A DNA stretch of 64,000 bases, taken from NCBI RefSeq assembly GCF_000219215.1, contig NC_015727.1:992001-1056000 (forward strand), read 5' to 3'. The stretch is from Cupriavidus necator N-1 (lineage in GTDB: Bacteria; Pseudomonadota; Gammaproteobacteria; Burkholderiales; Burkholderiaceae). Position 1 is the stretch's first letter. Each line of letters opens with the position of its first letter. Below are positions 9,313 through 46,127 of the stretch, piece by piece. Both the position numbers and the translations under genes were made by a program. The notes under the pieces are model-generated. The model worked only from the letters and a program-made list of their open reading frames with translations. It had not been told where the DNA came from and made no database searches.

Positions 9313-9957
9313 TCATTGGCCGTCCCTCCAGCTCGTAAGCCCCATCAGCTCCAGCGTGCTGCGACCTTCACGCAAGTCGTCCATCATCTTCGCTTCCTTA
9401 TCGGCGCGGGACTGGCCGCGGATCAGTGTGTTCTCGACGTAGGCCCTTGGAATTACCAGGACGCCATCATCATCGGCCACCACCAAATCGCCAGCCGCTA
9501 CCGGCGTACCGGTAAAGCTAATCGGCTGGCCGACCGAAGCTGAATTGGCCTTGATTGTTCCGCGCATGGAAATGCCACGGGTGAACACAGGAAAGCGCCG
9601 CGCCGTAAGGGCTGCGATGTCCCGCACGCCGCCATCGATGACCAGACCGATCACTCCGGCCGCTTCGGCTGCCACAGTCAGCACTTCGCCCCAGTATCCA
9701 GAAACGAAGCCGCCAGTCGAGACAACGAGCACGCTGCCGCGCGGCACCTTTTCCATGGCAATGTGGATGGACAGATTGTCGCCGGGCGAGCACTCCAGCG
9801 GATAGGCAGGACCGGCAACCGAAGCGCCCGCCCATACCGTGCGGATAGCTGGGTCGACCGAACTGGTGGTCAGGCCTGAAGCCTCGTACAACGTGGAGGT
9901 ACCCAGCTGGCGTGCCTGTTCTAGCGTTGCTGCTTCATAGCTTTTGATCGTAGACAT
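9313..9957 (-). CDS. RraA-type aldolase/decarboxylase family protein (block A, third in order)
   Basis: A 214-residue RraA/dimethylmenaquinone-methyltransferase-like protein. The family includes 4-hydroxy-4-methyl-2-oxoglutarate (HMG) aldolases with oxaloacetate decarboxylase activity. IGLVIDGGVRDIAAL supplies the Arg-Asp pair (Arg for the pyruvate moiety, Asp for the metal), and VVADDDGVLVIP closes the fold. Its ATG overlaps the stop of the preceding RraA gene (TAATG). It is the most divergent of the three RraA proteins in this operon and has no counterpart in block C's two-gene unit. Confidence 0.85.
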   Translation of the reverse strand: MSTIKSYEAATLEQARQLGTSTLYEASGLTTSSVDPAIRTVWAGASVAGPAYPLECSPGDNLSIHIAMEKVPRGSVLVVSTGGFVSGYWGEVLTVAAEAAGVIGLVIDGGVRDIAALTARRFPVFTRGISMRGTIKANSASVGQPISFTGTPVAAGDLVVADDDGVLVIPRAYVENTLIRGQSRADKEAKMMDDLREGRSTLELMGLTSWRDGQ

Positions 9958-10637
9958 TAGGCCTTCCTTTGCAGTGTGTGGTAACCCAGCGCCGCTCGTG
10001 CCTCGCCCAACGTCTTGCCCTGCGCCAGTTGTTCACGAATGCGTGATTCGGTCTCTTCAATCTTGCGGGCCGTCTCGGCTACGTCGCGCGCACGGCCGCG
10101 CGGGACGATAACGACGCCATTGGCGTCCGCCACGACGATGTCGCGAGAAGCCACACGCACAGTGCCAATCCCCACCGTGGCGTTTACTGATTCGACCTGC
10201 ACGCGGTCCTTGCCGGTACGCATGAAGCGGCCCGCCGTGAACAACGGGTAGTTGTCGCCGATTGCCTTGTTCACATCGCGGCAGACGCCGTCGATTACCG
10301 TGCCAGCGATGCGGCGCAGCCCTGCGTACTGGGTCATGATGTCGCCCCAGACGGTGCAATCTGTGCGGCCGTCGTTGTCGATCACGACTACATCGCCTTC
10401 CGCGACGTCGTCGATGAAGTCTCCGACGGTGCCTGGCGGCACGCTGGCGGGCACGTACTTGACGGTGAACGCCGGACCTACGACAACCTTCGTGTAGTCA
10501 ACCAAGGGCATGATGTCGAGCGCTTGACCGTGCAGGCCTAGCTTGTCCATGGCGTCCGAGACGCCGGGCGTGTCCAGGCCGGCGAAGAGCGCGACCAGTT
10601 CCTGGTCTTCGGCATTGGCTTTGAGGGAATTCGTCAT
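9957..10637 (-). CDS. RraA-type aldolase/decarboxylase family protein (block A, second in order)
   Basis: A 226-residue RraA-family protein. It opens with the ELVALFAGLDTPGVSDAMD region, with AGTVIDGVCRDVNKA holding the catalytic Arg-Asp pair and VVADANGVVIVPRGRA near the end. It is very similar over its length to the protein at 21158-21814, which also follows a homologue of 10659-11318, so the two-gene unit has been duplicated. Likely a metal-dependent pyruvate aldolase or oxaloacetate-type decarboxylase, with substrate unknown. Confidence 0.87.
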   Translation of the reverse strand: MTNSLKANAEDQELVALFAGLDTPGVSDAMDKLGLHGQALDIMPLVDYTKVVVGPAFTVKYVPASVPPGTVGDFIDDVAEGDVVVIDNDGRTDCTVWGDIMTQYAGLRRIAGTVIDGVCRDVNKAIGDNYPLFTAGRFMRTGKDRVQVESVNATVGIGTVRVASRDIVVADANGVVIVPRGRARDVAETARKIEETESRIREQLAQGKTLGEARAALGYHTLQRKA

Positions 10638-10658: not shown

Positions 10659-11318
10659 CTATTGGGCGCGGATGGCCTCGAATTCCTTGTCGTGCATAAC
10701 CTCAGCTACCGAGCGGCCGGCGCAGACGGCGGCCACCATGCCGTCTTGTCGCTTGGCGATGCGCTCGCTCAGGTCAAGCACCTCTTCGATGCGCGAAGCG
10801 GGAACGAACACCGTGCCGCACCGGTCGGCGATCACGTAATCGTCTTCATGGACGGTCACGCCAGCCATCTGAACGGGCTTGCCGGAATCAATTTGAATCA
10901 CCCGGTTGCGCGCACTAATCATGGTCACGCCGCGCCCATAGACCGGGTAGCCAATGGCCTCGCTGCCCTCGATGTCGCGGCTCATACCGTCAATGACCGA
11001 TCCACGCACTTGCTTGATATATGCCGCGTTGGCCAGGATGTCACCCCAACAGGAGATGCCGTCCACGCCTCCAGCGATCACGAGGACGCGGTCATCTGTG
11101 GTGACCGCATCAATTACCGGCGAGATGAGATGTACGGTGGGCTTTGCATCAGCCTTCGGGCCGAGCTGGATAGTGCTGGCGCGTCCGACGATCTTTGGAC
11201 AGTCCCAAAGAGGCCGAAGCCCATAGGTCGCACCAGAAAGCCCGAGAAAGTCAAGCGCATCGGAGACGGTGTTCGTGTCGAGCGATGCAAGGCGGTCGAG
11301 TAGGGAGAGCTGGATCAT
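10659..11318 (-). CDS. RraA-type aldolase/decarboxylase family protein (block A, first in order)
   Basis: About 219 residues. The start chosen (M-I-Q-L-S-L-L) matches residue for residue the start of the paralogue at 20493-21161. An in-frame ATG 15 bases upstream (11333) is the alternative. RGSVIDGMSRDIEG carries the Arg-Asp pair and VIADRCGTVFVPA is the usual C-terminal strand. First gene of the operon, with the shared promoter element about 50 bp upstream and a LysR gene divergent to it. Confidence 0.87.
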   Translation of the reverse strand: MIQLSLLDRLASLDTNTVSDALDFLGLSGATYGLRPLWDCPKIVGRASTIQLGPKADAKPTVHLISPVIDAVTTDDRVLVIAGGVDGISCWGDILANAAYIKQVRGSVIDGMSRDIEGSEAIGYPVYGRGVTMISARNRVIQIDSGKPVQMAGVTVHEDDYVIADRCGTVFVPASRIEEVLDLSERIAKRQDGMVAAVCAGRSVAEVMHDKEFEAIRAQ

Positions 11319-11369
11319 TGCGCTGGGTCTCATGAAGGTTCCCAGGAATCATGGTATCGACTTGCTAAT

Positions 11370-11403
11370 ATGTAAATTCTGAAGTAGATATCTCTGTGAT
11401 ACG
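11370..11403 (-). promoter_or_regulatory. Shared RraA promoter element, copy A
   Basis: Read on the minus strand: CGTAT, 19 bases, then GAATTTACAT. The same arrangement occurs before RraA genes at 20405-20438 and 19393-19425. TTTACA could be a -35 hexamer, with CATGAT 17 bases on as a weak -10. The upstream half would then be where the divergent LysR protein binds (inference). The element ends about 51 bp before the RraA start. Confidence 0.6.
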
Positions 11404-11502
11404 ATTTTTGGAACAGGATAGCCGGCGCTAGTGCGCCTCCAGCATCGCTCGCCACAGATTCCGGCTCGGAGCTGGCGCGAAACTACATGTGTGGATACAC
11501 CT

Positions 11503-12414
11503 ATGAACAATACGATCGACTTCCGGCTGATACGACAGTTATGGATGTTCCTGGCAGTCGCCGAGGAGCAGCACTTCGGACGCGCTGCCCAGCGACTTAA
11601 CATGTCACAGCCCCCACTGACGGAGCAGATTAAGGTGCTGGAACAGGCACTTAAGCTTCACTTGTTCGAACGCTCCCGGCGCGGCACCCAGCTGAGTCCG
11701 GCGGGGGCGGCGATCCTGCCGGCCGTGCGTCAGTTCGCCGGCCAAGTTGAGCGGTTGGAGCGTGTCGTTCGCGAGGTTGCCTCCGGCCAGTCTGGCGTGT
11801 TGCATATCGGAGCCGTCACCTCGGCCATGCTCGAATCGGTGCCACCTTTGCTTGACGCGCTCAAGCAGGTGCATCCGGATCTGACAGTGTTCGTCAAGGA
11901 AATCGACAGCGTCGAGGCGATTCCGGGCCTGGAGGCAGGGGAGCTCGATTTGGCTTTCGTTCGCCTGGATGGCGAGGTAGGGAATGGCATTGCGACGATG
12001 CCCCTGGCGGAAGACCGGCTTGCCGTGGCCCTACCTAAAGATCACGCACTTGCCGCGCTGCCCAGGGTGAGTCTTCGGTCGCTAGCGACCGAATCACTTG
12101 TGATGTCGTCTAGGGAGCGGAGCCCTGTCTACTTCGATCTGCTGACATCAGTTTGCCGTTCCCATGGGTTCATTCCCCGAGTTTTGCATGAGGTCCGAAC
12201 AATCACTTCTCAAGTTGCTTACGTCGGATGCGGCCAAGGCGTGGCTCTAGTGCCCTCGTCAATGCGCAAGTTGGCTCCGGAAAGTGTGGTCATTCGTCCG
12301 CTGAAAGAGCGGATCATGGTAGTTGCAGCTGCGCTCGCATGGAATGCCAACCGTTACCACCCAATGGTTGATGTGGCAGTGGCATGGCTGAAGCAACAGA
12401 GCGGTCGTCGTTGA
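11503..12414 (+). CDS. LysR-family regulator, divergent from block A operon
   Basis: A 303-residue LysR protein starting MNNTIDFRLIR. The helix-turn-helix is FGRAAQRLNMSQPPLTEQIK, followed by the effector domain (about 95-300). It is a clear paralogue of the LysR at 19454-20386 across the whole length (shared FLAVAEE, EIDSVEA, VGCGQGVALVPSSMRK). The shared operator-like element lies in the 185-bp gap to the divergent RraA gene, so it is the likely activator of the RraA/dehydratase/Glt operon. Confidence 0.93.
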   Translation: MNNTIDFRLIRQLWMFLAVAEEQHFGRAAQRLNMSQPPLTEQIKVLEQALKLHLFERSRRGTQLSPAGAAILPAVRQFAGQVERLERVVREVASGQSGVLHIGAVTSAMLESVPPLLDALKQVHPDLTVFVKEIDSVEAIPGLEAGELDLAFVRLDGEVGNGIATMPLAEDRLAVALPKDHALAALPRVSLRSLATESLVMSSRERSPVYFDLLTSVCRSHGFIPRVLHEVRTITSQVAYVGCGQGVALVPSSMRKLAPESVVIRPLKERIMVVAAALAWNANRYHPMVDVAVAWLKQQSGRR

Positions 12415-12512
12415 TCCGCGGCGCCCTTTAGGTAGGAAAGGCCCCGAAATTCTCCCTTTTCTGCCATAAGGCGACCAGCTTGGCTGACCTTTTATCCGTT
12501 AGCACCATAAAA

Positions 12513-12541
12513 CCCCGTCCTTCAGGGCCTTCTGGGCGGGG
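12513..12541 (-). repeat. Possible right-end hairpin of an IS200/IS605-type element
   Basis: On the minus strand, CCCCGCCC, a GAAGG..CTGAAGG core and CGGGG form a hairpin like the right end of tnpB-carrying elements. I found no convincing tnpB in the 12415-12800 gap, which otherwise holds no recognisable gene. It would be a second relic besides 4199-4232. Confidence 0.25.
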
Positions 12542-12800
12542 ATATAAGGTGCGAGTCTAAGCTCCAGGAAGAAGCTTCCAAGGCCATCGATTGCTCAGAG
12601 AATGCATCTGGCAACCCCAAAGCTCAGCACCTGTTCTTGAAGAATTGAGATGAGCTACTGGCGTGCGGGGTGGAGTCTTGGGCTTTCGAACCAGACCAAT
12701 TGCCGCCAGCGCCAGCAAAGCTCGAAAATAGCTGATATCCGATGCGGCTGTATGATGCGACGGTTGGCTTTGAAAAGTCTGTCCTATTACGCAACTCCCC

Positions 12801-13202
12801 GTGGAAAACGAAACCCACCTGCAGTTTGACTCCCTGCAATCCCTCGCCCGCCGCACTGATGCTGTGACTTCCGATTGTGCGTGCAGCGCCCCTGAGCTCG
12901 ATGAATGGACCTCCTTGCCCGTCTCCTTCCCAGAGCAACAGCTTAGCGTCATTGGCACCCTGGTTCGCGACATCTACACCGAGGCGACATTTGCGGAGTA
13001 CCACCCTCACGGCACAACCCTCTGGTCAGCCAAAGCACCGATTGCTCCACTCTACTATCCGTACAACCGGTGCACCGTCTCGGAATGCAGCGCGTGCCAG
13101 CGAGTGTATTTGCGCTACGTGGAAGGCGGAGGGTACTTCGTTGACCCCCGCATCCGTCGTCTGAGAACCAGCGTTCTTGTTGACGCCCTACTCCCTGAGT
13201 AG
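12801..13202 (+). CDS. Conserved hypothetical protein with C-terminal CxxC-type motif
   Basis: A 133-residue frame beginning with GTG. The C-terminal third, with YNRCTVSECSACQRVYLRY then EGGGYFVDPRIRRL, looks like a small conserved protein seen in Burkholderiales. The three cysteines could bind metal, but no function is known to me. It stands alone between the LysR gene and decayed DNA. Confidence 0.6.
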   Translation: MENETHLQFDSLQSLARRTDAVTSDCACSAPELDEWTSLPVSFPEQQLSVIGTLVRDIYTEATFAEYHPHGTTLWSAKAPIAPLYYPYNRCTVSECSACQRVYLRYVEGGGYFVDPRIRRLRTSVLVDALLPE

Positions 13203-13231
13203 ACTGGAACCGCCGGTTCGTTCTAGCCGCG

Positions 13232-13306
13232 CTACTCGGCGTAGACTCCTGCGGCCTTGATGACCGGCGTCCAGCCCGCGACTTCCGCCTTCCAAGCGTC
13301 GGCGCG
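13232..13306 (-). pseudogene. C-terminal fragment of a Bug/TctC receptor
   Basis: The last 24 codons of a minus-strand reading, ending in AWKAEVAGWTPVIKAAGVYAE then TAG, match the typical end of tripartite-tricarboxylate receptor proteins (W..VI..A.V). No intact upstream part is seen. The adjoining frames suggest decay. A fourth Bug locus in the window, now lost. Confidence 0.55.
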
Positions 13307-13960
13307 TCTTGTCGCTCGGCTACCTGGCGTCCCTCGCTCACGCGTGAGACGAGTCACTGGATTCCTTCCGGCACTTTATTCACGCCTCCGGTCGGTTCGC
13401 GAATTACCACTTGCACTGCCTTTCGCAACACGGGCTTTGACGCCCGCTGGCAGACAGCGACCTTGATGCGTGGGGCCACCAGGAGGCGGACCTCTTACTA
13501 CGATTCCTGACCGACGTTGGGTGTCGCGGGGCAGCAGCAACTTACCGGTCGTGCCGGCGCGGGTCGTACGGCGTCGGGTCGACATATGCCCGCACGCCAT
13601 CGAATAGTTCGCCGAGCAGCCCGGATTGCGAATTCTGCACCGGTCGTCAGCTTCATTCCGAACCGCTTAGGGGCAAGCAGGAAGCCGCTCGCCATAACGA
13701 GAACGGGCTTGCTCGGCGCCGAGCCGCCCTGAGTTCGGCAGGGACCCCCGGCCATGCAGCAGTTCCACGAGCCACTGGGAGCTCGCCCGACGTCAACGGC
13801 CGACCGGTCAAGTCAAGTCGGTAGGCTCGTGCCAGCACTCCAACTAATCCTCCGGAAGGTAGCATTCGTCAGACCACACCAGCCTCCCAACTCGGCCGGC
13901 CATAGCCACAAGGCGTAGTCACCAGACAGATTGGGATCTCGACCGCGGTGTAGCGATGAG
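13307..13960. other. Decayed region before the IS3 element
   Basis: No intact gene. A minus-strand stretch near 13620-13690 reads RFGMKLTTGAEFA, faintly like FAD-dependent amino-acid oxidases, but the frame breaks at once. Best viewed as remnant DNA next to the insertion sequence. Confidence 0.4.
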
Positions 13961-14029
13961 TGTGGTGGTCTAATTTCCTCGGACAGGTCGATAGGAGGAC
14001 AATCCGGAATCGACGAGGAAAAAAGATAG

Positions 14030-14326
<297 letters not shown>

Positions 14327-14907
14327 GCTACCGGGTGGTAGCCCACTTGCAACAGGAGGCCGTATCGGTCAGTAACGCCTGCCGGGTATTGCAGGTGAGC
14401 CGCTCGGGCTACTATGCGCACCGCCGCGCCAAGCCAAGCATGAAGACTCTGCAGGAGCAGACCCACGTCAAAGCGGCGTTCGCTGCGAGCGGCGCGAGCT
14501 ACGGCAGCCGGCGTGTCATGCATGCGGTGCGGGAACAAGGGGTGCACCTTGGCCGCTACCGGATTCGTAGGCTGATGCGCGAAGCGGGCTTGCGTGCGAC
14601 CTGGAAGCGTAAGTTCGTGTCGACGACTGACAGCAAACACACTCTGCCAGTGGCAGAGAACGTGCTGAACCGGCAATTTGACGTGGCCGAGCCGAATCGG
14701 GCCTGGACTTCAGACATCACCTATGTCCGCACGGCCCAAGGCTGGCTGTATCTGGCGGTCGTGCTGGACTTGTACTCGCGCAAGGTCGTGGGCTGGTCGA
14801 TGGCGCCGACCATGCCGGCCGACCTGGTGATGTCGGCACTGAGCATGGCGCTGCAGCAGCGAAGGCCAGCGCCGGGACTGGTGCTGCACTCGGATAGGGG
14901 CAGTCAG

Positions 14908-16359
14908 CACGGATTCAACCGGTCGTCGCAACACTAGATTGTCGAACAGATTTTAGATAGTCGTCCAGGGCTTCGGCAGGTGTCTTCCAACCAAGCGTTT
15001 TTCGGGGCCTGGTATTCAGTGCATTGGCAACGGCCTGGATCTCTCGAGCGCTCCAACGGGATAGGTCTGTGCCTTTTGGAAAGTATTGTCGCAGAAGACC
15101 GTTCGTGTTCTCGTTCGTGCCGCGCTGCCATGGACTGTGCGGATCGGCGAAGAATACCTTTACCCCGGACTCGACGGTGAAGCGGGCGTGATCGGATAGT
15201 TCCTTGCCACGATCCCAAGTCAATGACCGCCACAACTGGGCAGGCATGTCGGACACCGTCTTCTTGAGCGCATTGGCCATCGTGACAGCTCCGTAGCCAG
15301 CCAGTGCGGGGCCATTCTTCGTCCGGGGAGTCGACCCATAGCCTTTCTCCCGAGGCACGTGGACGAGCATGGTGAAACGGCTTGATCTCTCCACCAGCGT
15401 CCCAATAGCAGATCGGTTCAGGCCGATGATCAGGTCACCCTCCCAATGCCCTGGCACAGCACGATCCTGCGCTTCTGCAGGCCGGCTAGAGATCATCACA
15501 TCCTCGCTAACATGCGCCCAGGCCTTGGCTTGTGCCCTGGCCCTCGGTACGCGCAACGCCCGCCCAGTGCGCAGACAGCTGACCAGCTCGCGCTTGAGAG
15601 CGCCGCGGCCCTGGATATAGAGCGCTTGGTAAATGGCTTCGTGAGATATGCGCATGGATTCATCATCCGGGAAGTCGATCTGCAGCCGATTGGAAATCTG
15701 TTCGGGCGACCAGCCATTGACCCATTTGCGGTCACCGCGATGCGGTTTGTTTCTTCCTTTGAACGGCGCTTGCCGAGGCCCAGAAATTTCACGGCCATCA
15801 GCGTCGCAAACCTTGCCCTCCAAACGATCTTGCACATAGTGGCGCAGCCGTGGGTTAGTCACCAATTTCGACGGTTTGGGTCTTTTGGCAACCAGTTCCG
15901 CCTTCCACTGCGCAACTGAAGCCCGATACTCAAGCTGGCCGCCACGAGTTGCAGCGTTACGCGTCAGTTCCCGGGAGACCGTTGACGGGCTGCGTCCGAT
16001 ACGGCGAGCGATCTCGCGTACTCCGACGCCTTGGAGCGAAAGTAGCCCAATCTCTTCTCGCTCCGCGAACGACAAATACCTACCAGATATAGGGTTCGAC
16101 ATGAAAAGTGGCATACCGCCACGATAGCGGAACCAGCGCGCGCCTACTGCCTGCGATACGCCAACCGCCTCTGCTGCCTTCTCACTTGTAATGCCTGTTG
16201 CGATTTGCGCCCAGAATCGCCGCTCGATCTCACGCCGATGCGACGGTGCACCTGGAGAGCGCATCGCTCCTCGCCCTGTCAACTTCTGCATCCACCCCGC
16301 TGGCCGTCCCATAAACACCTCCTCGATTAAAGGTGTTGCGACGACCGGTTGAATCCGTC
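14908..16359 (-). mobile_element. Complete IS30-family insertion sequence nested in the IS3 element
   Basis: 1452 bp long. Perfect 26-bp inverted repeats lie at 14909-14934 and 16333-16358 (outward ends ACGGATTCAACCGG). The target CAG is duplicated at 14905-14907 and 16360-16362. The transposase gene is intact and its stop lies inside the left repeat. It looks complete and potentially active. Confidence 0.95.
14915..16312 (-). CDS. IS30-family transposase
   Basis: A 465-residue protein starting MGRPAGWMQ after AGGAGG spaced six bases. It has a helix-turn-helix region ([18 protein letters not shown]) and a DDE catalytic domain with D in [10 protein letters not shown] in LTWDRGKEL and E in [17 protein letters not shown]. 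Longer upstream frames would extend through the inverted repeat into the host IS and are rejected. Confidence 0.94.
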
Positions 16360-16947
16360 CAGTACGCGAGCGCGGAGTATCAGGCCTTGCTGGCACGCCA
16401 TCAGATTGTTTGCAGCATGAGTCGAAAAGGCAATTGCTGGGATAACGCGGTGACGGAACGGTTCTTCCTAAACCTGAAGATGGAGCGCGTGTGGCAGCGT
16501 CAATACGCCAACCACGCCGAGGCACGGCGCGACATCACCCAGTACATCGTTGGTTTCTATAATCCGGTGCGCTTGCACTCAACCCTGGGGTATCTGTCGC
16601 CCGCTGTCTACGAGGCGAAATCGACAGAAAAAGAACCTATCTGCCTGTCCGAAATAACTTGACCACTACAGAGTTTCCGAGCCCCGACTATTGCGAAGAA
16701 AATAATGGGAAGGTCTCATGACCCTCCCCTAGTCCACCAAACTTCCGACACATCAAATTTCTGGTGGGGAGACACCAACTCTCTGCGGCTATACCCTGAT
16801 TCCAGTATTTGCTTCAACCTGTCCTGTCCCATCGAGGTTGCCGTACTTCGCGAGGTCCGGCATCAACGCCGAGGCGAGGCGTGCTCACCTGCCAGGACAT
16901 GGTCCTCGTCAACTAGCGTACCGAGTGACTGAATGAGGGAAATGGTC

Positions 16948-17931
16948 TTACTCCATCTTCGCACCAGATACACGGATAATCTCCGCGTACTTGACCAGTT
17001 CAGTTCTCATAAACTCTCCGAACCACGGCGCGTTACGCCCCGGCGACATCACGACGCCCAGGCTCTGTTCCATTTGCTTCTTCACCTCGGGGTCCGCCAA
17101 TATGGCGTTGATTTCCCGATTCAGGAACTCTTGAATCGGCGTGGGGAGCTTCGCGGGCGCGAGCACGCCATACCATGCGGAAGCCAGCATGTCCTTGTAG
17201 CCAAGCTCGGCGAACGTCGGGACATCAGGAAGGGCAGCGATGCGCCTCTCAGAGGCGACTGCGAGCGCTCTGAGGCTTCCTGCTTTAACTTGCGGCAGTG
17301 AACCGGTATCAAGGATAAAGTCGAGTTGACCCGCCATCAGGTCGGAGATTGCCGGACCGCTGCCTTTATATGGCACGTGCACCGCGTCTACGCCAGCAAC
17401 CCGCTTCAGCAAGGAAGCCGCAAGATGCTGCGAAGACCCTGACCCAGCCGTCCCGTAGTTGAGTGTGCCTGGCTTCTTCTTCCCTTCGTCGATGAGTTCC
17501 TTTGCCGATTTGAAACGCGATGTCTTTGGCACCTCCAGTACGTTGGGAATCAGGCCAACATACGCGACAGGCGTGAAGTCTTTGACAGGGTCGAACCCCA
17601 ACTTGGAGTACAGATACGGGCCAGCCGCGTTGGTCGAACTTGTCGCCATAAGAAGGGTGTAACCATCCGGCTTCTCCCGTACGAACGCGGCCGTACCGAT
17701 AGTACCGCCGGCGCCCGCCCGGTTATCCACGACAACCGCCTGCTTGATTCGGGCACCAAGCTTCTGAGCGATAATGCGGGAAAGAGCGTCGGTGGCACCA
17801 CCGGCCGCCCAAGGAACAACAAGCTTGATTGGTCGCTCCGGGTAGCCAGGGACCTGTGCCGAGGATACGCTCGGAATCAGGAGTGCGACGGAGAACGATG
17901 CGCTGATGGCAAAGTGTTTGGCGTGTCTCAT
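16948..17931 (-). CDS. Bug/TctC-family periplasmic receptor
   Basis: A 327-residue tripartite tricarboxylate transporter receptor-like protein. A signal peptide (about residues 1-25, ending VSSAQ) is followed by YPERPIKLVVPWAAGGATDALSR, the family's ligand loop, and GTAGSGSSQHLAASLL and VPYKGSGPAISDLMAGQ. No TctA/TctB genes are nearby. It is downstream of the RraA gene and RraA pseudogene on the same strand, so it probably senses or binds a carboxylate linked to that operon. Confidence 0.93.
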   Translation of the reverse strand: MRHAKHFAISASFSVALLIPSVSSAQVPGYPERPIKLVVPWAAGGATDALSRIIAQKLGARIKQAVVVDNRAGAGGTIGTAAFVREKPDGYTLLMATSSTNAAGPYLYSKLGFDPVKDFTPVAYVGLIPNVLEVPKTSRFKSAKELIDEGKKKPGTLNYGTAGSGSSQHLAASLLKRVAGVDAVHVPYKGSGPAISDLMAGQLDFILDTGSLPQVKAGSLRALAVASERRIAALPDVPTFAELGYKDMLASAWYGVLAPAKLPTPIQEFLNREINAILADPEVKKQMEQSLGVVMSPGRNAPWFGEFMRTELVKYAEIIRVSGAKME

Positions 17932-18084
17932 GGCCTTCTAGTCTTGAATGTTAGCCCCGCAGTGCCGGGGGCTTAAGCGACGGGTTCTCTGCGTAGATGA
18001 CCCCATAACTGGCAGGCCGCTGCCCGGCATTCGCTACAAACCGGCCAGGGCCATTTGATTTCATGTGGAAAGCGAGACGGAGTA

Positions 18085-18282
18085 GCCCGTGGGACCGGCA
18101 TGAAAGGACGGCACCAGGCTCCAGCACCTTCCAAAAGCACTCCCCTTCGCAAACTACAGTCGCGACCTCGGCCTTGATTCGTTCCTTACGTTCTTTGCCG
18201 TCATCCCACAGTACAGTGTGTCGATGACCTCGGCGAGTGCGAATGCGGGAAGGGGATTGATTGTCAGACTGGACGGTGCCAC
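18085..18282 (-). pseudogene. Deleted and frameshifted copy of the neighbouring RraA gene
   Basis: From a GTG at 18282 it reads APSSLTINPLPAFALAEVID, matching the start of the intact RraA protein (ATSSLTVNPVPALAPAEVIE). It then jumps to the C-terminal TAKN segment, missing roughly 130 codons, and ends with VLEPGA after a frameshift. The ribosome site and promoter element are also duplicated upstream (18341-18350). This is a tandem duplicate that lost its core. Confidence 0.8.
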
Positions 18283-18454
18283 GCAGTCTCCTAGGAAAGT
18301 TGCCTTCTAATGAGAGAATTCTCCGGCAACGTCTCGCATTTGTAAAATACGAATCTCGGAAGATTTTGATATTGAAAACCTATTGAACGGCCCGTTTCGG
18401 CTATGTCGCTCGCGCTCGGCCGTTGTTGTCCAAGAATTGCTATTGCGGCATCAC

Positions 18455-18658
18455 CTACACAGCTTTCCCCGCGGCGGACCAAGCAATCCTATTCTTGCTT
18501 CCATCAGCAGGAGCACCACAGCGAATCAAGGCCGAAGTGACTGTAGGGACGCCACCGGGCTCCAGCACCCTTCCCAAGGCGCTCCCGTTCGTAAACTCCC
18601 CTGTAGCCATTCTGTCGAAAGCGAGGGACGCGAACGCAATCGCGTTCCCTCTCATCAT
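18455..18658 (-). other. Second degenerate segment sharing the GSA..RVLEPG tail
   Basis: This minus-strand reading contains GEFTNGSALGRVLEPGGV, similar to CEGECFWKVLEPGAV in the pseudogene at 18085-18282. It follows the RraA stop directly and looks like another decayed repeat unit rather than a gene. Together the two segments fill most of the gap between the Bug and RraA genes. Confidence 0.35.
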
Positions 18659-18665
18659 TGTCGAT

Positions 18666-19334
18666 TCAGTACAGCCCGTGGGGCTCGAGCACCTTGCGAA
18701 GCCACTCTTGCTCTCTCACGCCCGTCGCAATCTCGGCCATGATGTTCTCTTCGTTCTTCGCCGTTACGGCGACCGCCTTCAGCAGCGCATGTGCCTGGGA
18801 TACGGGAAATGCGACCACACCATCCTCATCTCCAACAACGACGTCTCCAGGGGAGATAATTTGGCCGCCAATCGATACAGGAATGTTCATTGCACCGGGG
18901 CCCATCTTGTAGGGGCCTCGATGGCTGACATCCCTCGCGAAGCAGGGAAAATCTGACTCATGGAACGCCGCCGTGTCGCGAGTTGCCCCATCCAGAACAA
19001 AGCCGGCGCAGCCCCGCGCCACCGCGTATTGCATGATGAGTTCACCCACCAGCGCATTCGTACAGTCTCCGCCCCCGTCGACGACCAGGACATGGCCTGG
19101 TTGCAACTCCATCAACGCCTTGTAAATCAGCAGATTGTCGCCAGGTCGAGCCTTGACCGTGATGGCGGTACCAACCAGCTTTCGGCTACGGTTGAACCGC
19201 TTCAGACCCGTCACACCAGAAAGGCGCTGTAGGTTGTCGCTGATGTGCGGAGTTACCACGTTCCGAAATGCCTCGATAACTTCGGCGGGCGCGAGAGCCG
19301 GAACGGGGTTGACGGTTAGGCTAGAGGTTGCCAC
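18666..19334 (-). CDS. RraA-type aldolase/decarboxylase family protein
   Basis: 222 residues from a GTG start with AGGAGAC seven bases upstream; longer frames read into the LysR gene and are rejected. AGFVLDGATRDTAAF holds the Arg-Asp pair, and VVGDEDGVVAFP the C-terminal strand. It belongs to a different RraA subgroup from the block A/C pairs. It carries the shared promoter element 58 bp upstream and is followed by its own decayed copy and a Bug receptor. Likely cleaves or decarboxylates a 2-oxo/hydroxy dicarboxylate, with substrate unknown. Confidence 0.88.
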   Translation of the reverse strand: MATSSLTVNPVPALAPAEVIEAFRNVVTPHISDNLQRLSGVTGLKRFNRSRKLVGTAITVKARPGDNLLIYKALMELQPGHVLVVDGGGDCTNALVGELIMQYAVARGCAGFVLDGATRDTAAFHESDFPCFARDVSHRGPYKMGPGAMNIPVSIGGQIISPGDVVVGDEDGVVAFPVSQAHALLKAVAVTAKNEENIMAEIATGVREQEWLRKVLEPHGLY

Positions 19335-19392
19335 AAGAGTCTCCTGGAAAGAGTCGGGGGGATATGCGAACTCTCGGGCAACATCACACGGC

Positions 19393-19425
19393 TGTAAATT
19401 CCAAATACCGGATTGATTCGATACG
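19393..19425 (-). promoter_or_regulatory. Shared RraA promoter element, copy D
   Basis: Minus strand: CGTAT, exactly 19 bases, GAATTTACA. It is preceded by TAGGTTTGG, also found before copy C at 20395-20409. It lies about 58 bp before the GTG start of the RraA gene and just past the end of the LysR gene. TTTACA may serve as a -35 box. Confidence 0.6.
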
Positions 19426-19453
19426 CCAAACCTATGGATAGGACTTGAATACC

Positions 19454-20386
19454 CTACCCAGCCTGGCGCTGCCGCTGTTGTCTCGACGTGGCGACTTTGC
19501 CACTCGACAGGATGTCGATAGCAGCTTCGACTGCAGGACTCTGTCTGCTTTTCGACCAGGCCATTGCAGTGGTAACTACATTGACCGCCTCCTTCAGCGG
19601 GCGGACAACAACACTCTCTGGAGCGGCCTTCTTCATGGATGACGGCACAAGCGCAATACCCTGCCCACATCCGACAAAAGCCACTTGCGTGGCAACGGTT
19701 CGCACTTCATGGAGTATTCGGGGAGAAAAGCCAGCAGCCCAACATGTCGCGATGATGCTGTCGAAGTACGTCGGGCTTACAGCACGAGAGAAGATGACAA
19801 AGGGTTCGTCAGACAGACTTGCAAGGCGAACCCTAGGCATGTCCGCAAACCTATGGGTCTTCGGCAGGGCAACTGCCAGCCGATCCTGCTTTAGTGGAAC
19901 CGCACCAATTGTTGTCCCCATATCGCCTTCAAGGCGAGCAAAAGCCAGGTCGATGTCGCCCCGCTCCAGCGCTGGCACTGCATCGACGCTATCTATCTCC
20001 GTGACCGAGACCGTCAACTGAGGGAATCTCCTTCCAAGTTCGTCAATTAGAGCTGGCAGCGTATCAACCAGCGCAGAAGAAATGGCGCCGATGGATAGCA
20101 CGCCGGTGCTGCCTGCGATTGCCTCTTGCACGGCCAGTTCTAGTCGGTCCAGTTGCTCGGCAAACTTCCGAACCGCAGGCAGAATTGCCGCCCCAATTGG
20201 AGTCAGAGTCGCCCCCTTCCTGCCGCGCTCAAAGAGCTTCACCTTGAGTGCTTGCTCGAGCACCTGAATCTGCTCGGATAAAGGGGGCTGGGACATCCCC
20301 AGCCGCTTCGCGGCGCGCCCAAAATTTCCCTCTTCGGCCACTGCGAGGAAGAGATAGAGGTGCCGAACAAGCCGGAAGTTAATCAT
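19454..20386 (-). CDS. LysR-family regulator, divergent from RraA-RraA-aminotransferase
   Basis: 310 residues. Helix-turn-helix FGRAAKRLGMSQPPLSEQIQ, then the effector-binding domain. It is a paralogue of the LysR at 11503-12414 and, like it, faces an RraA pair across a short gap (106 bp) that contains the shared promoter element. It probably activates that pair, and perhaps the RraA gene immediately downstream of itself (18666-19334), which carries the same element. Confidence 0.93.
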   Translation of the reverse strand: MINFRLVRHLYLFLAVAEEGNFGRAAKRLGMSQPPLSEQIQVLEQALKVKLFERGRKGATLTPIGAAILPAVRKFAEQLDRLELAVQEAIAGSTGVLSIGAISSALVDTLPALIDELGRRFPQLTVSVTEIDSVDAVPALERGDIDLAFARLEGDMGTTIGAVPLKQDRLAVALPKTHRFADMPRVRLASLSDEPFVIFSRAVSPTYFDSIIATCWAAGFSPRILHEVRTVATQVAFVGCGQGIALVPSSMKKAAPESVVVRPLKEAVNVVTTAMAWSKSRQSPAVEAAIDILSSGKVATSRQQRQRQAG

Positions 20387-20404
20387 GACGATTGATAGGT
20401 TTGG

Positions 20405-20438
20405 CGTATGGAAAGGTTACTGGATTCGGAATTTACAT
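20405..20438 (+). promoter_or_regulatory. Shared RraA promoter element, copy C
   Basis: CGTAT (20405-20409), 19 bases, GAATTTACAT (20429-20438). The right half sits inside TTCG...CGAA arms (20425-20443). It ends about 54 bp before the RraA start at 20493. TTTACA as -35 would place transcription start about 20 bp before the gene. Confidence 0.6.
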
Positions 20439-20492
20439 TTCGAACTCTAGCGCCGACAGTAAGGCCATGGCAACCCAACACCCCCTCTCATC

Positions 20493-21161
20493 ATGAGTAC
20501 TCCGTCCCTGCTGGACCGCCTTGCATCGCTCGATACCAACACGGTGTCCGATGCTCTGGATTTCCTGAACCTCCCTGGCGCGACCTATGGCATTCGCCCT
20601 CTCTGGGATTGCCCAAAGATTGTTGGCCGTGCGAGCACCATTCAACTGGGCCCCAAGACCGATGCAAAGCCGACTGTGCATCTCATCACGCCCGTCGTTG
20701 CACAAATCCAGACGGACGACCGCATTCTCGTCATCGCCGGTGGCCAGGAAGGTATCTCGTGCTGGGGTGACATCCTCGCCAACGCGTCTGCGGCAAAGAA
20801 GGTACGAGGCTCGGTCATTGACGGTGTTAGTCGCGATATTGAAGGCAGCGAGTCCATTGGGTATCCCGTGTTCGGCCGTGGCGTCACGATGATTAGCGCG
20901 CGCAACCGCGTGGTGCAAGTCGACGCCGGAAAGCCCGTAACGTTCGCGGGTGTGGTGGTCAACGAAGACGACTATGTCATCGCTGACCGTTGTGGCACCG
21001 TGTTCGTCCCCGCAAATCAAATCGAAGAAGTGCTCGACCTGGGCGAACGCATTGCGCGTCGTCAGGACGGCATGGTGACGGCCGTGCGTTCTGGGCGCTC
21101 TGTCGAAGAAGTCATGCACGACAAGGAATTCGAAGCCATCAACAGCAAGGAAGCAAAATGA
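20493..21161 (+). CDS. RraA-type aldolase/decarboxylase family protein (block C, first)
   Basis: 222 residues. It is nearly identical in layout to 10659-11318 (LLDRLASLDTNTVSDALDFL; RGSVIDGVSRDIEG; VIADRCGTVFVPA). The Arg-Asp metal/substrate pair is kept. Its stop overlaps the next RraA start (ATGA), so the two are translationally coupled and may form a mixed oligomer (inference). Confidence 0.88.
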   Translation: MSTPSLLDRLASLDTNTVSDALDFLNLPGATYGIRPLWDCPKIVGRASTIQLGPKTDAKPTVHLITPVVAQIQTDDRILVIAGGQEGISCWGDILANASAAKKVRGSVIDGVSRDIEGSESIGYPVFGRGVTMISARNRVVQVDAGKPVTFAGVVVNEDDYVIADRCGTVFVPANQIEEVLDLGERIARRQDGMVTAVRSGRSVEEVMHDKEFEAINSKEAK

Positions 21162-21814
21162 CTGACAAGGAACTGGTAGCCCTTTTCGAGGGTCTGGACA
21201 CCCCTGGCGTATCGGACGCGATGGACCGCCTTGGTCTGCCCGGTCAATGCCTGGGTATCGCCCCGCTGGACAACTACCGCAAGCCTGTGGTCGGCCCCGC
21301 CTTCACGGTTAAATACGTGTCGGCCAGCACCCCTCCCGGTACTGTCGGTGACTTCATCGACGATGTGCAGTCCGGGGACATCATCGTCATCGACAACGAC
21401 GGCCGCACGGACTGCACGGTGTGGGGCGACATCATGACACAGTATGCTGGCGCTCGCGGCATCGCTGGCACCGTGATTGACGGCGTTTGCCGCGACGTGA
21501 CGAAGGCTCTCGGCGACAGCTATCCGCTCTTTACGCGCGGCCGGTTCATGCGTACCGGCAAGGACCGCGTGCAAGTTGAATCCGTGAACACGCCTGTTTC
21601 CGTGGGGACCGCCCGCGTTTGTGCTCGCGACATCGTCGTGGCAGACGCCAATGGCGTTGTCGTTATCCCGCGCGAGCGTGCAAAGGAAGTCGCTGAACTT
21701 GCCCGCAAGATCGAGGGCGTCGAATCGCAGATTCGCGAGCACATTGCCAACGGTAAGACGCTGGGTGAAGCCCGTGAAGCTCTTGGTTACCACACCTTGC
21801 AGAGGAAGGCGTGA
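21158..21814 (+). CDS. RraA-type aldolase/decarboxylase family protein (block C, second)
   Basis: 218 residues starting MTDKELVALFEGLDTPG. Earlier in-frame starts lie inside the previous gene. AGTVIDGVCRDVTKA carries the Arg-Asp pair. It is a close paralogue of 9957-10637, including the C-terminal GKTLGEAREALGYHTLQRKA. Its stop overlaps the aminotransferase start (TGATG), giving a coupled three-gene operon. Confidence 0.88.
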   Translation: MTDKELVALFEGLDTPGVSDAMDRLGLPGQCLGIAPLDNYRKPVVGPAFTVKYVSASTPPGTVGDFIDDVQSGDIIVIDNDGRTDCTVWGDIMTQYAGARGIAGTVIDGVCRDVTKALGDSYPLFTRGRFMRTGKDRVQVESVNTPVSVGTARVCARDIVVADANGVVVIPRERAKEVAELARKIEGVESQIREHIANGKTLGEAREALGYHTLQRKA

Positions 21815-23028
21815 TGGCAGCCGAGCAACAGCGCTTAAACGTGAATCTTGCCAACGCCCAACCGTCGGCAACGTACCGCATGATGGACCGCGTCGCCGCC
21901 AAGCGTGCGACCGGTGCGAAAATCATCTCTCTGAGTGCCGGAGAGCCCGATTTCGACACGCCGAGTCACATTTGTGAGGCGGCCATCGGTGCCATTCGCA
22001 GCGGCCATACCCGTTACACGCAGGTAGCTGGACTGCGTGCCCTTCGGGAGGTCATCGCCGAGAAGTTCAAACGCGAGAACGGACTCGATGTCAGCTGGCA
22101 AGAGACGATCGTCTGTTCGGGCGGCAAGCAGGTCATCTACAACGCCCTGGCAGCCACGTTGAACACCGGTGACGAGGTCATCGTGCCCGCTCCGTACTGG
22201 GTGAGCTATCCCGAGATGGTCCAACTGTGCGGCGCTACACCGGTGGTCGTACCGTGCGGCGCCGACGTGGGCTTCAAACTGACGTCTGAAGCGTTGAGCA
22301 ACGCTATCACGCCGAAGACCCGCTGGCTGATTCTTAACTCTCCATCGAATCCGACTGGCGCCGTCTACTCGCAAGCAGAATTGGCCGGCCTGGCCGAAGT
22401 ACTACTGGCTCATCCTCATGTACTGGTGCTGTCGGACGACATCTACGAGCACCTGACCTTCGACGGTGCAAAGTTCCATACGATGGCCCAGGTGGAACCG
22501 CGTCTCAAGGACCGGACGCTAACGATGAATGGCGTGTCCAAGGCGTATGCCATGACGGGCTGGCGCATCGGCTTCGGTACTGGGCCAGCATGGTTGCTCG
22601 AGGCGATGGAGAAGCTTCAAGGCCAGCAAACCTCTGGCGCGTCCTCAATCTCGCAGCACGCTGCTCTCGCCGCGCTCCAAGGCCCCCAAGATTTCATCCA
22701 CGACTCGAAGGCTGTATTCCAGGCTCGCCGGGACATGATGGTGGACCTACTGAACAACACGCCGGGACTTGGCTGTGCTGTACCGGGCGGCGCGTTCTAC
22801 GCATTTGCATCCTGCGAAGGTCTGCTCGGCAAAACCACACCCGCCGGCACGCTGCTTCGCACGGACGAGGACGTTGCGCTCGCCTTGCTTGAAGAAGCCA
22901 ATGTCGCTGTGGTGCACGGGTCGGCCTTCGGGCTCGGCCCATACATCCGCATCGCCTATGCGTTGGACAACGAATCCCTGCGCAAGGCCTGCGAAGCCAC
23001 TCGTCAGTTCTGCCTGTCTCTCACGTGA
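21814..23028 (+). CDS. Class I/II PLP aminotransferase (aspartate aminotransferase-like)
   Basis: About 404 residues, fold-type I. Substrate-loop LSAGEPDFDTP near residue 37, NSPSNPTGAVYS, then the Schiff-base lysine in TMNGVSKAYAMTGWRIGF. The ATG at 21814 has AGAGGAAGG upstream; a GTG three bases earlier is an alternative. It converts an amino acid to the 2-oxo acid. In this operon it would feed 2-oxo dicarboxylates to the two coupled RraA-type enzymes, a combination block A replaces with a dehydratase and RidA. Confidence 0.93.
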   Translation: MAAEQQRLNVNLANAQPSATYRMMDRVAAKRATGAKIISLSAGEPDFDTPSHICEAAIGAIRSGHTRYTQVAGLRALREVIAEKFKRENGLDVSWQETIVCSGGKQVIYNALAATLNTGDEVIVPAPYWVSYPEMVQLCGATPVVVPCGADVGFKLTSEALSNAITPKTRWLILNSPSNPTGAVYSQAELAGLAEVLLAHPHVLVLSDDIYEHLTFDGAKFHTMAQVEPRLKDRTLTMNGVSKAYAMTGWRIGFGTGPAWLLEAMEKLQGQQTSGASSISQHAALAALQGPQDFIHDSKAVFQARRDMMVDLLNNTPGLGCAVPGGAFYAFASCEGLLGKTTPAGTLLRTDEDVALALLEEANVAVVHGSAFGLGPYIRIAYALDNESLRKACEATRQFCLSLT

Positions 23029-44992: not shown

Positions 44993-45586
44993 TTAGAAGG
45001 TTTCGAATCCGAGGTGCTCACGGAAGCGGTTCTTCACGTACACACCATCGCGCGGAGGCAGGGCTCGCTGCGGCTCTTCGGTCGAGATGTAGACCTGAGC
45101 CACCGTGATGCCGTGGCCCTTCTTGATTTCTTGAGTCAGCTTTTCGAGCTCGCTGATGTCGGAGATCTCTAGCGTCGTCGGTACGCCGACCGCCTTCGCC
45201 ACTTGGGCGAGGTTGGTGCCGAGGCTGGTGTGGCTCTGCTGCATCCCGGTCTCACCGAAGTGACCGTTGTCCAGTACCACGATGTTCAGGTTGTTCTGCT
45301 TTTGGGCGGCTGCAGTGGCCAGGCTACCGATACCCATCAGCTGCTCGCCGTCGCCGGTAATCGCAATCACGGTCTTGTCGGGCTGAGCAATGGCCAGGCC
45401 GAGCGCGAGCGACGTGGAGCCGCCCATTGCACCCCACAGGTAGAAGTTGCTCGGGCGGTCGCCAGCGGCGAAGACGTCATACGAAGGCGAGCCGAGACCC
45501 GTCACGACGAGCGCATCGGGAAACTGCTTCAGGAGTTCGGCGACGAACTTGCGGCGGTCAATGCCGGTCTTGGAAGTCGGGGTAGT
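44993..45586 (-). CDS. TPP-dependent 2-oxo-acid decarboxylase, beta subunit (sulfopyruvate decarboxylase-like)
   Basis: 197 residues from MTTPTSKTG; an ATG 33 bases upstream overlaps the alpha gene. It carries the TPP/Mg motif starting GDGEQLMGIGSLATAAAQ and ending VVLDNGHFGETG, as in ComE and phosphonopyruvate decarboxylase. Only the TPP-binding half is present, the pyrimidine half being the upstream alpha gene. Such pairs decarboxylate acidic 2-oxo acids to aldehydes. Confidence 0.88.
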   Translation of the reverse strand, partial: TTPTSKTGIDRRKFVAELLKQFPDALVVTGLGSPSYDVFAAGDRPSNFYLWGAMGGSTSLALGLAIAQPDKTVIAITGDGEQLMGIGSLATAAAQKQNNLNIVVLDNGHFGETGMQQSHTSLGTNLAQVAKAVGVPTTLEISDISELEKLTQEIKKGHGITVAQVYISTEEPQRALPPRDGVYVKNRFREHLGFETF

Positions 45587-45593
45587 CATAGCT

Positions 45594-46127
45594 TCAGCGA
45601 ATCCACTTTTTGCGGCCAATCAGGCTCTGGGACAGGAGGACAGCAACACGGTTGCCGGCGTCGAAGGCGGAACACAGGCCAGCGTCAATAAGTTCAGCAG
45701 CTTCATCCGGGGAATTCACGCGGTACACCGTGATGCCCATCAATTCCAGTGCCCGCTGCGTCGCCAATCCCATCGAGTTTTGCCAGGGATTGAACTCAGC
45801 GTATTCACCCCGCATGGTCACCAGCGTGAAGAAGGGGAACTTGCAACTATCCAGCAGCGAGAACATGTTGACGCAGTTGCCTACGCCGCTGCTCTGCATC
45901 AGCAGCACTGCTCGCTGCCCGCCGAGCCAGGCGCCGCTCACTACAGCAACACCTTCTTCCTCGGTGGTAAGCACAACGTCCCGGATTTCCGGGTCCGCTT
46001 TTGCGCGCTTGATGACGTGGGAATGGCCGGCGTCCGGGACGTACGCCACCTGTTGAACATTGTTTTCCTTGAGGGCCTGGAAGATGGCCTCTTGCCACGC
46101 AAGTGGCTCAGAGTTGGAACTGGTCAT
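45594..46127 (-). CDS. TPP-dependent 2-oxo-acid decarboxylase, alpha subunit (sulfopyruvate decarboxylase-like)
   Basis: 177 residues (or 183 from the ATG at 46145). Pyrimidine-binding domain with the activating glutamate in LTTEEEGVAVVSGAWLGG and LLMQSSGVGNCVNMFSLL, as in ComD. Seven bases separate it from the beta gene. First gene of an operon with the aldehyde dehydrogenase, deacylase and hydrolase, divergent from a LysR gene. Sulfopyruvate, phosphonopyruvate and oxaloacetate are all possible substrates. Confidence 0.86.
   Translation of the reverse strand: MTSSNSEPLAWQEAIFQALKENNVQQVAYVPDAGHSHVIKRAKADPEIRDVVLTTEEEGVAVVSGAWLGGQRAVLLMQSSGVGNCVNMFSLLDSCKFPFFTLVTMRGEYAEFNPWQNSMGLATQRALELMGITVYRVNSPDEAAELIDAGLCSAFDAGNRVAVLLSQSLIGRKKWIR

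Follow-up and report, generated by a model that had tools for sequence, protein, structure and literature searches.

A two-block element in front of RraA-family genes of Cupriavidus necator N-1 and its predicted role as the core of a LysR-activated promoter

What kind of regulatory site is repeated in front of three RraA-family genes of Cupriavidus necator N-1, and which protein would act on it? The genes lie in a 64,000-nucleotide stretch of contig NC_015727.1 (positions 992,001 to 1,056,000, forward strand; hereafter the window, whose coordinates are used unless a locus is named), and each is preceded by the blocks CGTAT and GAATTTACA with exactly 19 bases between them, from which a first-pass annotation had proposed a small LysR regulon for RraA-type enzymes. 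The two blocks were found to be the core of a module of ~66 bp, comprising a LysR-type box, a second T-N11-A, a -35 hexamer TTTACA and a weak -10 hexamer GAaAgT; its spacing is fixed, it is conserved among relatives, it occurs together with LysR genes, and its exact core is confined to the window in this genome. The modules are best read as LysR-activated sigma-70 promoters of one small regulon, to which we assign a probability of about 0.88.

Exact and degraded copies in the window

Exact matches to CGTAT-N19-GAATTTACA were found in the window at 11371-11403 (minus strand; site A), 19393-19425 (minus strand; site B) and 20405-20437 (plus strand; site C), and no match was found in 100 shuffles of the window. 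Both blocks, the 19-base spacing and all three sites were as first described, except that two of the intervals had been given one base too long. Across the whole 8.48 Mb genome, these three were the sole exact matches (reversed control, 0); when up to 2 mismatches were allowed, 10 extra places appeared, every one with exactly 2 (reversed control, 2). A chance origin of the element was rejected on the strength of the shuffles, the uniqueness in the genome and the reversed controls.

The end of site A lies 52 bp from the start of RraA1 (ATG 11318) and 37 bp from the first in-frame ATG (11333), that of site B 58 bp from the start of RraA3 (GTG 19334), and that of site C 55 bp from the start of RraA2 (ATG 20493), so that the 51-58 bp proposed initially becomes 52-58 bp with the homology-supported ATG 11318. 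Sites A and C occupy divergent LysR-RraA gaps beside LysR1 (11503-12414, plus strand; inferred start) and LysR2 (19454-20386, minus strand), paralogs with 60% protein identity, in agreement with the first-pass annotation; site B lies between the LysR2 stop (19454) and RraA3, on the same strand. The spacers do differ in sequence as had been claimed, the 19 bases being identical at 6/19 positions between A and B, 7/19 between A and C, and 10/19 between B and C.

Could the similarity be a functionless leftover of gene-cluster duplication? The clusters are paralogous (RraA1 and RraA2 are 81% identical), and a degraded fourth copy, module D (18318-18384, minus strand; core 18341-18373), stands before a broken RraA3-like remnant of 42 codons (18154-18282, minus strand) that resembles the RraA3 N-terminus, which indicates that tandem duplication took place. 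The remnant was not seen by blastn at E 1e-3 and was detected by local alignment against shuffles: module D plus the remnant aligned to module B plus RraA3 with a score of 59 (shuffle maximum, 25), and the remnant aligned to the RraA3 protein with a score of 73 (shuffle maximum, 52). However, the blocks have stayed intact at A, B and C while their spacers and flanks drifted apart (6-10 of 19 bases identical), RraA3 is only 21% identical to RraA2, the same columns are conserved from Cupriavidus to Pseudomonas, and neither block survives in the copy ahead of the broken gene, gene and element having decayed alike. Functionless copying was rejected on the diverged spacers with intact blocks and the low RraA3-RraA2 identity, and we consider it scarcely credible. 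Module D may still drive the TctC-type gene at 16948-17931.

Architecture of the module

Columns were numbered with the C of CGTAT as 0, those of the search pattern being fixed by selection. For the comparison, 76 exact sites were reduced to 53 non-redundant ones, with L004-L013, L112, L113 and any site lying too close to the end of its locus excluded (L and G numbers denote loci and genomes, respectively). Among the unselected columns, T13, A51 and T55 were each present in 53/53 sites, and ATAGGTT at -10 to -4 was strongly conserved (A-10, 51/53; T-9, 52/53; A-8, 46/53; G-7, 47/53). The hexamer at columns 50-55 reads GAaAgT, with G50 in 51/53 sites, and lies exactly 17 bp downstream of TTTACA (columns 27-32). 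The best-kept positions of a -10 hexamer are the A in second place and the T in sixth. Because a conserved, unselected -10 follows at exactly 17 bp, TTTACA very probably serves as the -35 hexamer in a sigma-70 promoter whose -10 is weak; the arrangement has the two hexamers ~17 bp apart that are expected of such a promoter, and the earlier suggestion of a -35 is strongly supported by it.

Predicted transcription starts were set 7 bp after the -10, from which the box centers of -65 and -43 follow. The box T(-9)-N11-A(3), mostly GATAGGTTTGGCGTATC, is centered at predicted -65, and the second, T(13)-N11-A(25), at predicted -43, A25 belonging to the search pattern. The block CGTAT forms the right half of the LysR-type box; the left half, ATAG, is found in B and C and is missing from A. 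The geometry fits the textbook LysR-type layout, in which a T-N11-A recognition site near -65 is combined with an activation site at the promoter (PMC8407307, excerpt).

Module A (11348-11413, minus strand), before RraA1, has the exact core, boxes T11412-N11-A11400 and T11390-N11-A11378, a predicted -35 TTTACA at 11376-11371 and a predicted -10 CATGAT at 11353-11348, which has one mismatch to GANNNT, with transcription predicted to start at ~11341. Module B (19370-19436, minus strand), behind LysR2 and before RraA3, has boxes T19434-N11-A19422 and T19412-N11-A19400, a predicted -35 at 19398-19393, a predicted -10 GAGAGT at 19375-19370 and a predicted start at ~19363. In the LysR2-RraA2 divergent gap, module C (20394-20460, plus strand) has boxes T20396-N11-A20408 and T20418-N11-A20430, a predicted -35 at 20432-20437, a predicted -10 GACAGT at 20455-20460 and a predicted start at ~20467. 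The extended motif was matched by B and C with 0 mismatches and by D with 2, and site A was missed by it; B and C have ATAGGTTTGGCGTAT in common, in place of which site A carries AAAATCGTATCACAGAGATAT, and forms like site A were found beside LysR genes resembling LysR1 in L096, L107, L108, L109, L111 and L119. Modules B and C are outward-facing copies that flank LysR2 ~1 kb apart, an arrangement that recurs in G196, G220, G286 and G360.

If the LysR proteins purely repressed, being bound to the module without activating it until an inducer released them, the box of gap C would be well placed, as it overlaps the stretch immediately before the LysR2 start, where sites for autorepression typically lie. 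Against this, the anchor box at -65 precedes the promoter, and every form of the module has a -10 with weak positions 1 and 3, as an activated promoter would; pure repression is improbable. Because the box of module C starts 7 bp from the LysR2 start codon, LysR bound there could also hold down LysR2 itself.

Conservation at LysR loci and distribution among genomes

Conservation was assessed at the loci of the best 80 of 290 LysR relatives (65-95% identical), drawn from Cupriavidus, Paraburkholderia, Caballeronia, Collimonas, Variovorax, Pseudogulbenkiania, Herbaspirillum and many Pseudomonas; the closest were from Cupriavidus sp. IDO (95%) and 'Burkholderiaceae bacterium 16' (94%). With up to 2 mismatches, 84 places were found, of which 34 are in the upstream LysR gap, 42 immediately follow LysR and 8 are elsewhere, the gap windows for locus counts having been set by hand; T13, A51 and T55 were all present in 34/34 upstream, 39/42 downstream and 7/8 other places. 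Thirty exact sites of L019-L093, taken from these same 80 loci, served to train a position weight matrix (PWM), for which the 45 loci that have no exact site are therefore a partial test. The PWM was positive in one or both LysR-flanking gaps of 79/80 loci, with 75 loci positive upstream, 48 downstream and 44 on both sides; 44 of those 45 were among the positive loci, 8 positives lay elsewhere, and the 80 loci, each shuffled once by mononucleotides, gave 0. The Pseudomonas loci that lack a close match carry, upstream, a variant copy with TAATATACC. Far from being absent from orthologous promoters, a possibility that the first-pass annotation had marked for checking, the module is carried by 79 of the best 80 LysR loci. 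In the window, the PWM scores were 87.2 for module C, 51.0 for B and 32.3 for D.

Locus gene contents were obtained by our own gene picking. RraA-family genes were present in 67/80 loci by this procedure and in 74/80 by profile search, an aminotransferase, always from one family, in 69/80 and an alpha/beta hydrolase in 52/80. In Pseudomonas the order is LysR, downstream module and then the alpha/beta hydrolase gene, and in L034, L043, L059 and L069 no RraA gene was detected, yet a copy lies behind LysR, before the hydrolase gene. The module follows LysR rather than RraA as such, since copies precede the alpha/beta hydrolase gene in Pseudomonas and a TctC-type gene in L121.

The family survey covered 398 genomes, drawn evenly from a larger group, and yielded the exact element at 34 places in 25/398 genomes (reversed control, 1 genome). 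At 30 of the 34 places the element directly adjoins this LysR, and the same ~3 kb also hold an RraA gene; for one of the 30 (L099), the side that the module faces gave no RraA gene. At L121 (1/34) the exact element stands before a TctC-type receptor gene, behind two genes that appear to be the cluster's own aminotransferase and hydrolase. Gene context was read at 33 of the 34 places, all but the second G065 site.

Might the module be bound by another transcription factor, encoded elsewhere, with the LysR genes as mere neighbors or targets? The position of module B outside a divergent gap would allow it. LysR2 relatives at E <= 1e-70 were found in 9 of 60 same-genus genomes, 59 of which were covered by the exact-element search; the element was present in 7/9 genomes with this LysR and in 0/50 without it (Fisher p 1e-7), the two LysR-bearing genomes without an exact element having near-sites with 1 mismatch (G316) and 2 mismatches (G365). 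This co-occurrence, the T-N11-A form of the box and the presence of the module on both sides of LysR in other genera make another factor very improbable. The small LysR regulon for RraA-type enzymes is well supported by the 79/80 loci and by the 7/9 versus 0/50 contrast, with the amendment that the module is also found before genes other than RraA.

A class-wide sample of 369 genomes gave, besides the match of the window itself, matches in 6/368 others (reversed control, 3 genomes); no LysR or RraA was present in any of the stretches retrieved, and these matches were taken as background. On these figures, the element as a sequence common in the class was rejected; nor is it frequent at unrelated sites, another point raised at first pass, given its uniqueness in the genome and the 30/34 family places beside LysR and RraA.

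Several observations weigh against regulation of one regulon by these LysR proteins. Site A is without the ATAG half and its PWM score is -16.7, the fourth best in the window, the next place scoring -24.3; the -43 box depends on two columns, one of which belongs to the search pattern; and the matrix scored the very loci that supplied its training sites. One of the 80 loci (L091) has no module and another (L080) a weak one (PWM 5.2), neither locus having an RraA gene, and the exact matches L112 and L113 (2/34) have neither a LysR nor an RraA gene nearby. Sites within one genus, moreover, are non-independent.

A module-like site was also noted at G000:C4:1090694-1090749 (L012 1478-1533); it has 2 mismatches, including the -10, is without the ATAG half, faces a short, different LysR frame and may be due to chance. 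Two Herbaspirillum loci have a second, back-to-back module pair 4-6 kb from the LysR match (L078, 12470 minus and 12708 plus; L090, 11040 minus and 11249 plus).

Encoded proteins, proposed mechanism and known systems

Cluster 1 consists of RraA1 (10659-11318, minus strand; start by homology), the first gene behind module A, two further RraA-family genes (9957-10637 and 9313-9957, minus strand) and a threonine-deaminase-like gene. Cluster 2 consists of RraA2 (20493-21161, plus strand), the first gene behind module C, a second RraA-family gene (21158-21814, plus strand) and, as its last gene, a class I aminotransferase (21811-23028, plus strand) that is 95% identical to its L014 counterpart; the gene set is thus split over two clusters in the window. 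RraA3 (18666-19334, minus strand) belongs to the PRK06201 subfamily (273 bits; cut-off, 231).

Six window proteins matched PF03737 (Aldolase/RraA superfamily) at 102-159 bits (gathering score, 24.5). Five RraA proteins were scanned against curated models and fell below the cut-offs for RNase E regulators (NF006875, 25-86 of 136 bits; TIGR02998, <=42 of 241) and for 4-carboxy-4-hydroxy-2-oxoadipate (CHA) aldolases (TIGR02798, <=159.8 of 304.5; NF006731, <=169.8 of 179), the near miss to NF006731 being the product of 9313-9957; both identities were rejected for these five. The three genes behind the modules are RraA by family, as first named, and by the curated cut-offs the scanned proteins are relatives of the aldolase type rather than regulators of RNase E. 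The motif G-x-V-x-D-G-x-x-R-D, which we take to be the metal-site motif of RraA-family aldolases, is conserved in all six, and the window proteins are probably aldolases or decarboxylases.

Both LysR proteins have HTH_1 and LysR_substrate domains, and the regulator gene adjoins the module. Their recognition regions, MSQPPLTEQIKVLEQAL and MSQPPLSEQIQVLEQAL, are nearly identical, and LysR1 and LysR2 could therefore bind each other's sites. We infer LysR binding, activation, the exact start sites and an inducer that would be a small pathway acid. The adjacent LysR would anchor at the T-N11-A box ending in CGTAT (~-65); with inducer bound, it would settle on the second T-N11-A (~-43), beside TTTACA, and there help sigma-70 polymerase to initiate where a good -35 is followed, after a 17-bp spacer, by a weak -10, switching on the RraA-family operons. 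More tentatively, and with rather more doubt than confidence, the 66-bp operator-promoter may be a portable cassette common to the two paralogous LysR proteins, recruiting distant RraA, alpha/beta hydrolase and TctC-type receptor genes, chiefly through the fixed slot behind lysR, into a single regulon with cross-regulation. Such a regulon would serve a catabolic pathway not yet described, perhaps one for a 4-hydroxy-2-oxo acid formed by way of the aminotransferase.

GalC of Pseudomonas putida is presumably an RraA-family protein. It is the CHA aldolase of the gal operon, whose LysR-type activator GalR acts in a divergent gap at a T-N11-A recognition box and at a further site close to the -35, as predicted for the present module (PMC9942251, excerpt). 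GalR has a box of its own, like CTATA-N9-TATAG with AACGCAT halves, a ring-cleavage pathway and the effector 4-oxalomesaconate (PMC9942251, excerpt), whereas the present system has tandem RraA genes, an aminotransferase and a different box. In Novosphingobium and Sphingobium, LigR is likewise a LysR-type activator beside its target operons, divergent from ligK, and binds at ~-51 to -85 upstream of the start; it serves aromatic lig genes, mostly in Sphingomonadales (PMC12710314, excerpt), and the five scanned RraA proteins are below the ligK cut-off. Because GalR (PMC9942251, excerpt) and LigR (PMC12710314, excerpt) are precedents for LysR-type control of CHA-aldolase operons, the kind of regulation is not new; this particular regulon and its motif strings were not found in the open-licence PMC papers searched. 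The best sequence matches of LysR2 were CatM/BenM, AlsR and the solved LysR chain 7w06, and its scores fell well short of the curated cut-offs (214.7 of 430 bits for the AlsR model). CatR/CatM/BenM boxes are T-N11-A sites of the form AkACC-N5-GGTAT (PMC6449761, excerpt), whereas the box here is GATAG-N7-CGTATC within a fixed module.

The module ties one regulator to a widespread and, on the searches made here, undescribed cluster of tandem RraA-family enzymes, aminotransferase and hydrolase across Burkholderiales and Pseudomonas, and offers an example in which conservation by itself is enough to recognize a LysR box, -35 and -10. Its operator would lend itself to use as a reporter with which the inducer, and through it the substrate of the RraA-family enzymes, could be found.

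Between the two LysR-RraA clusters, frames at 13813-16525 resemble insertion-sequence transposases, an identification made by eye from the translations. At 44993-46127 (minus strand), two frames match the two halves of a thiamine pyrophosphate (TPP)-enzyme pair, and such a pair is near the LysR-RraA cluster in several Pseudomonas loci, L017 and L027.

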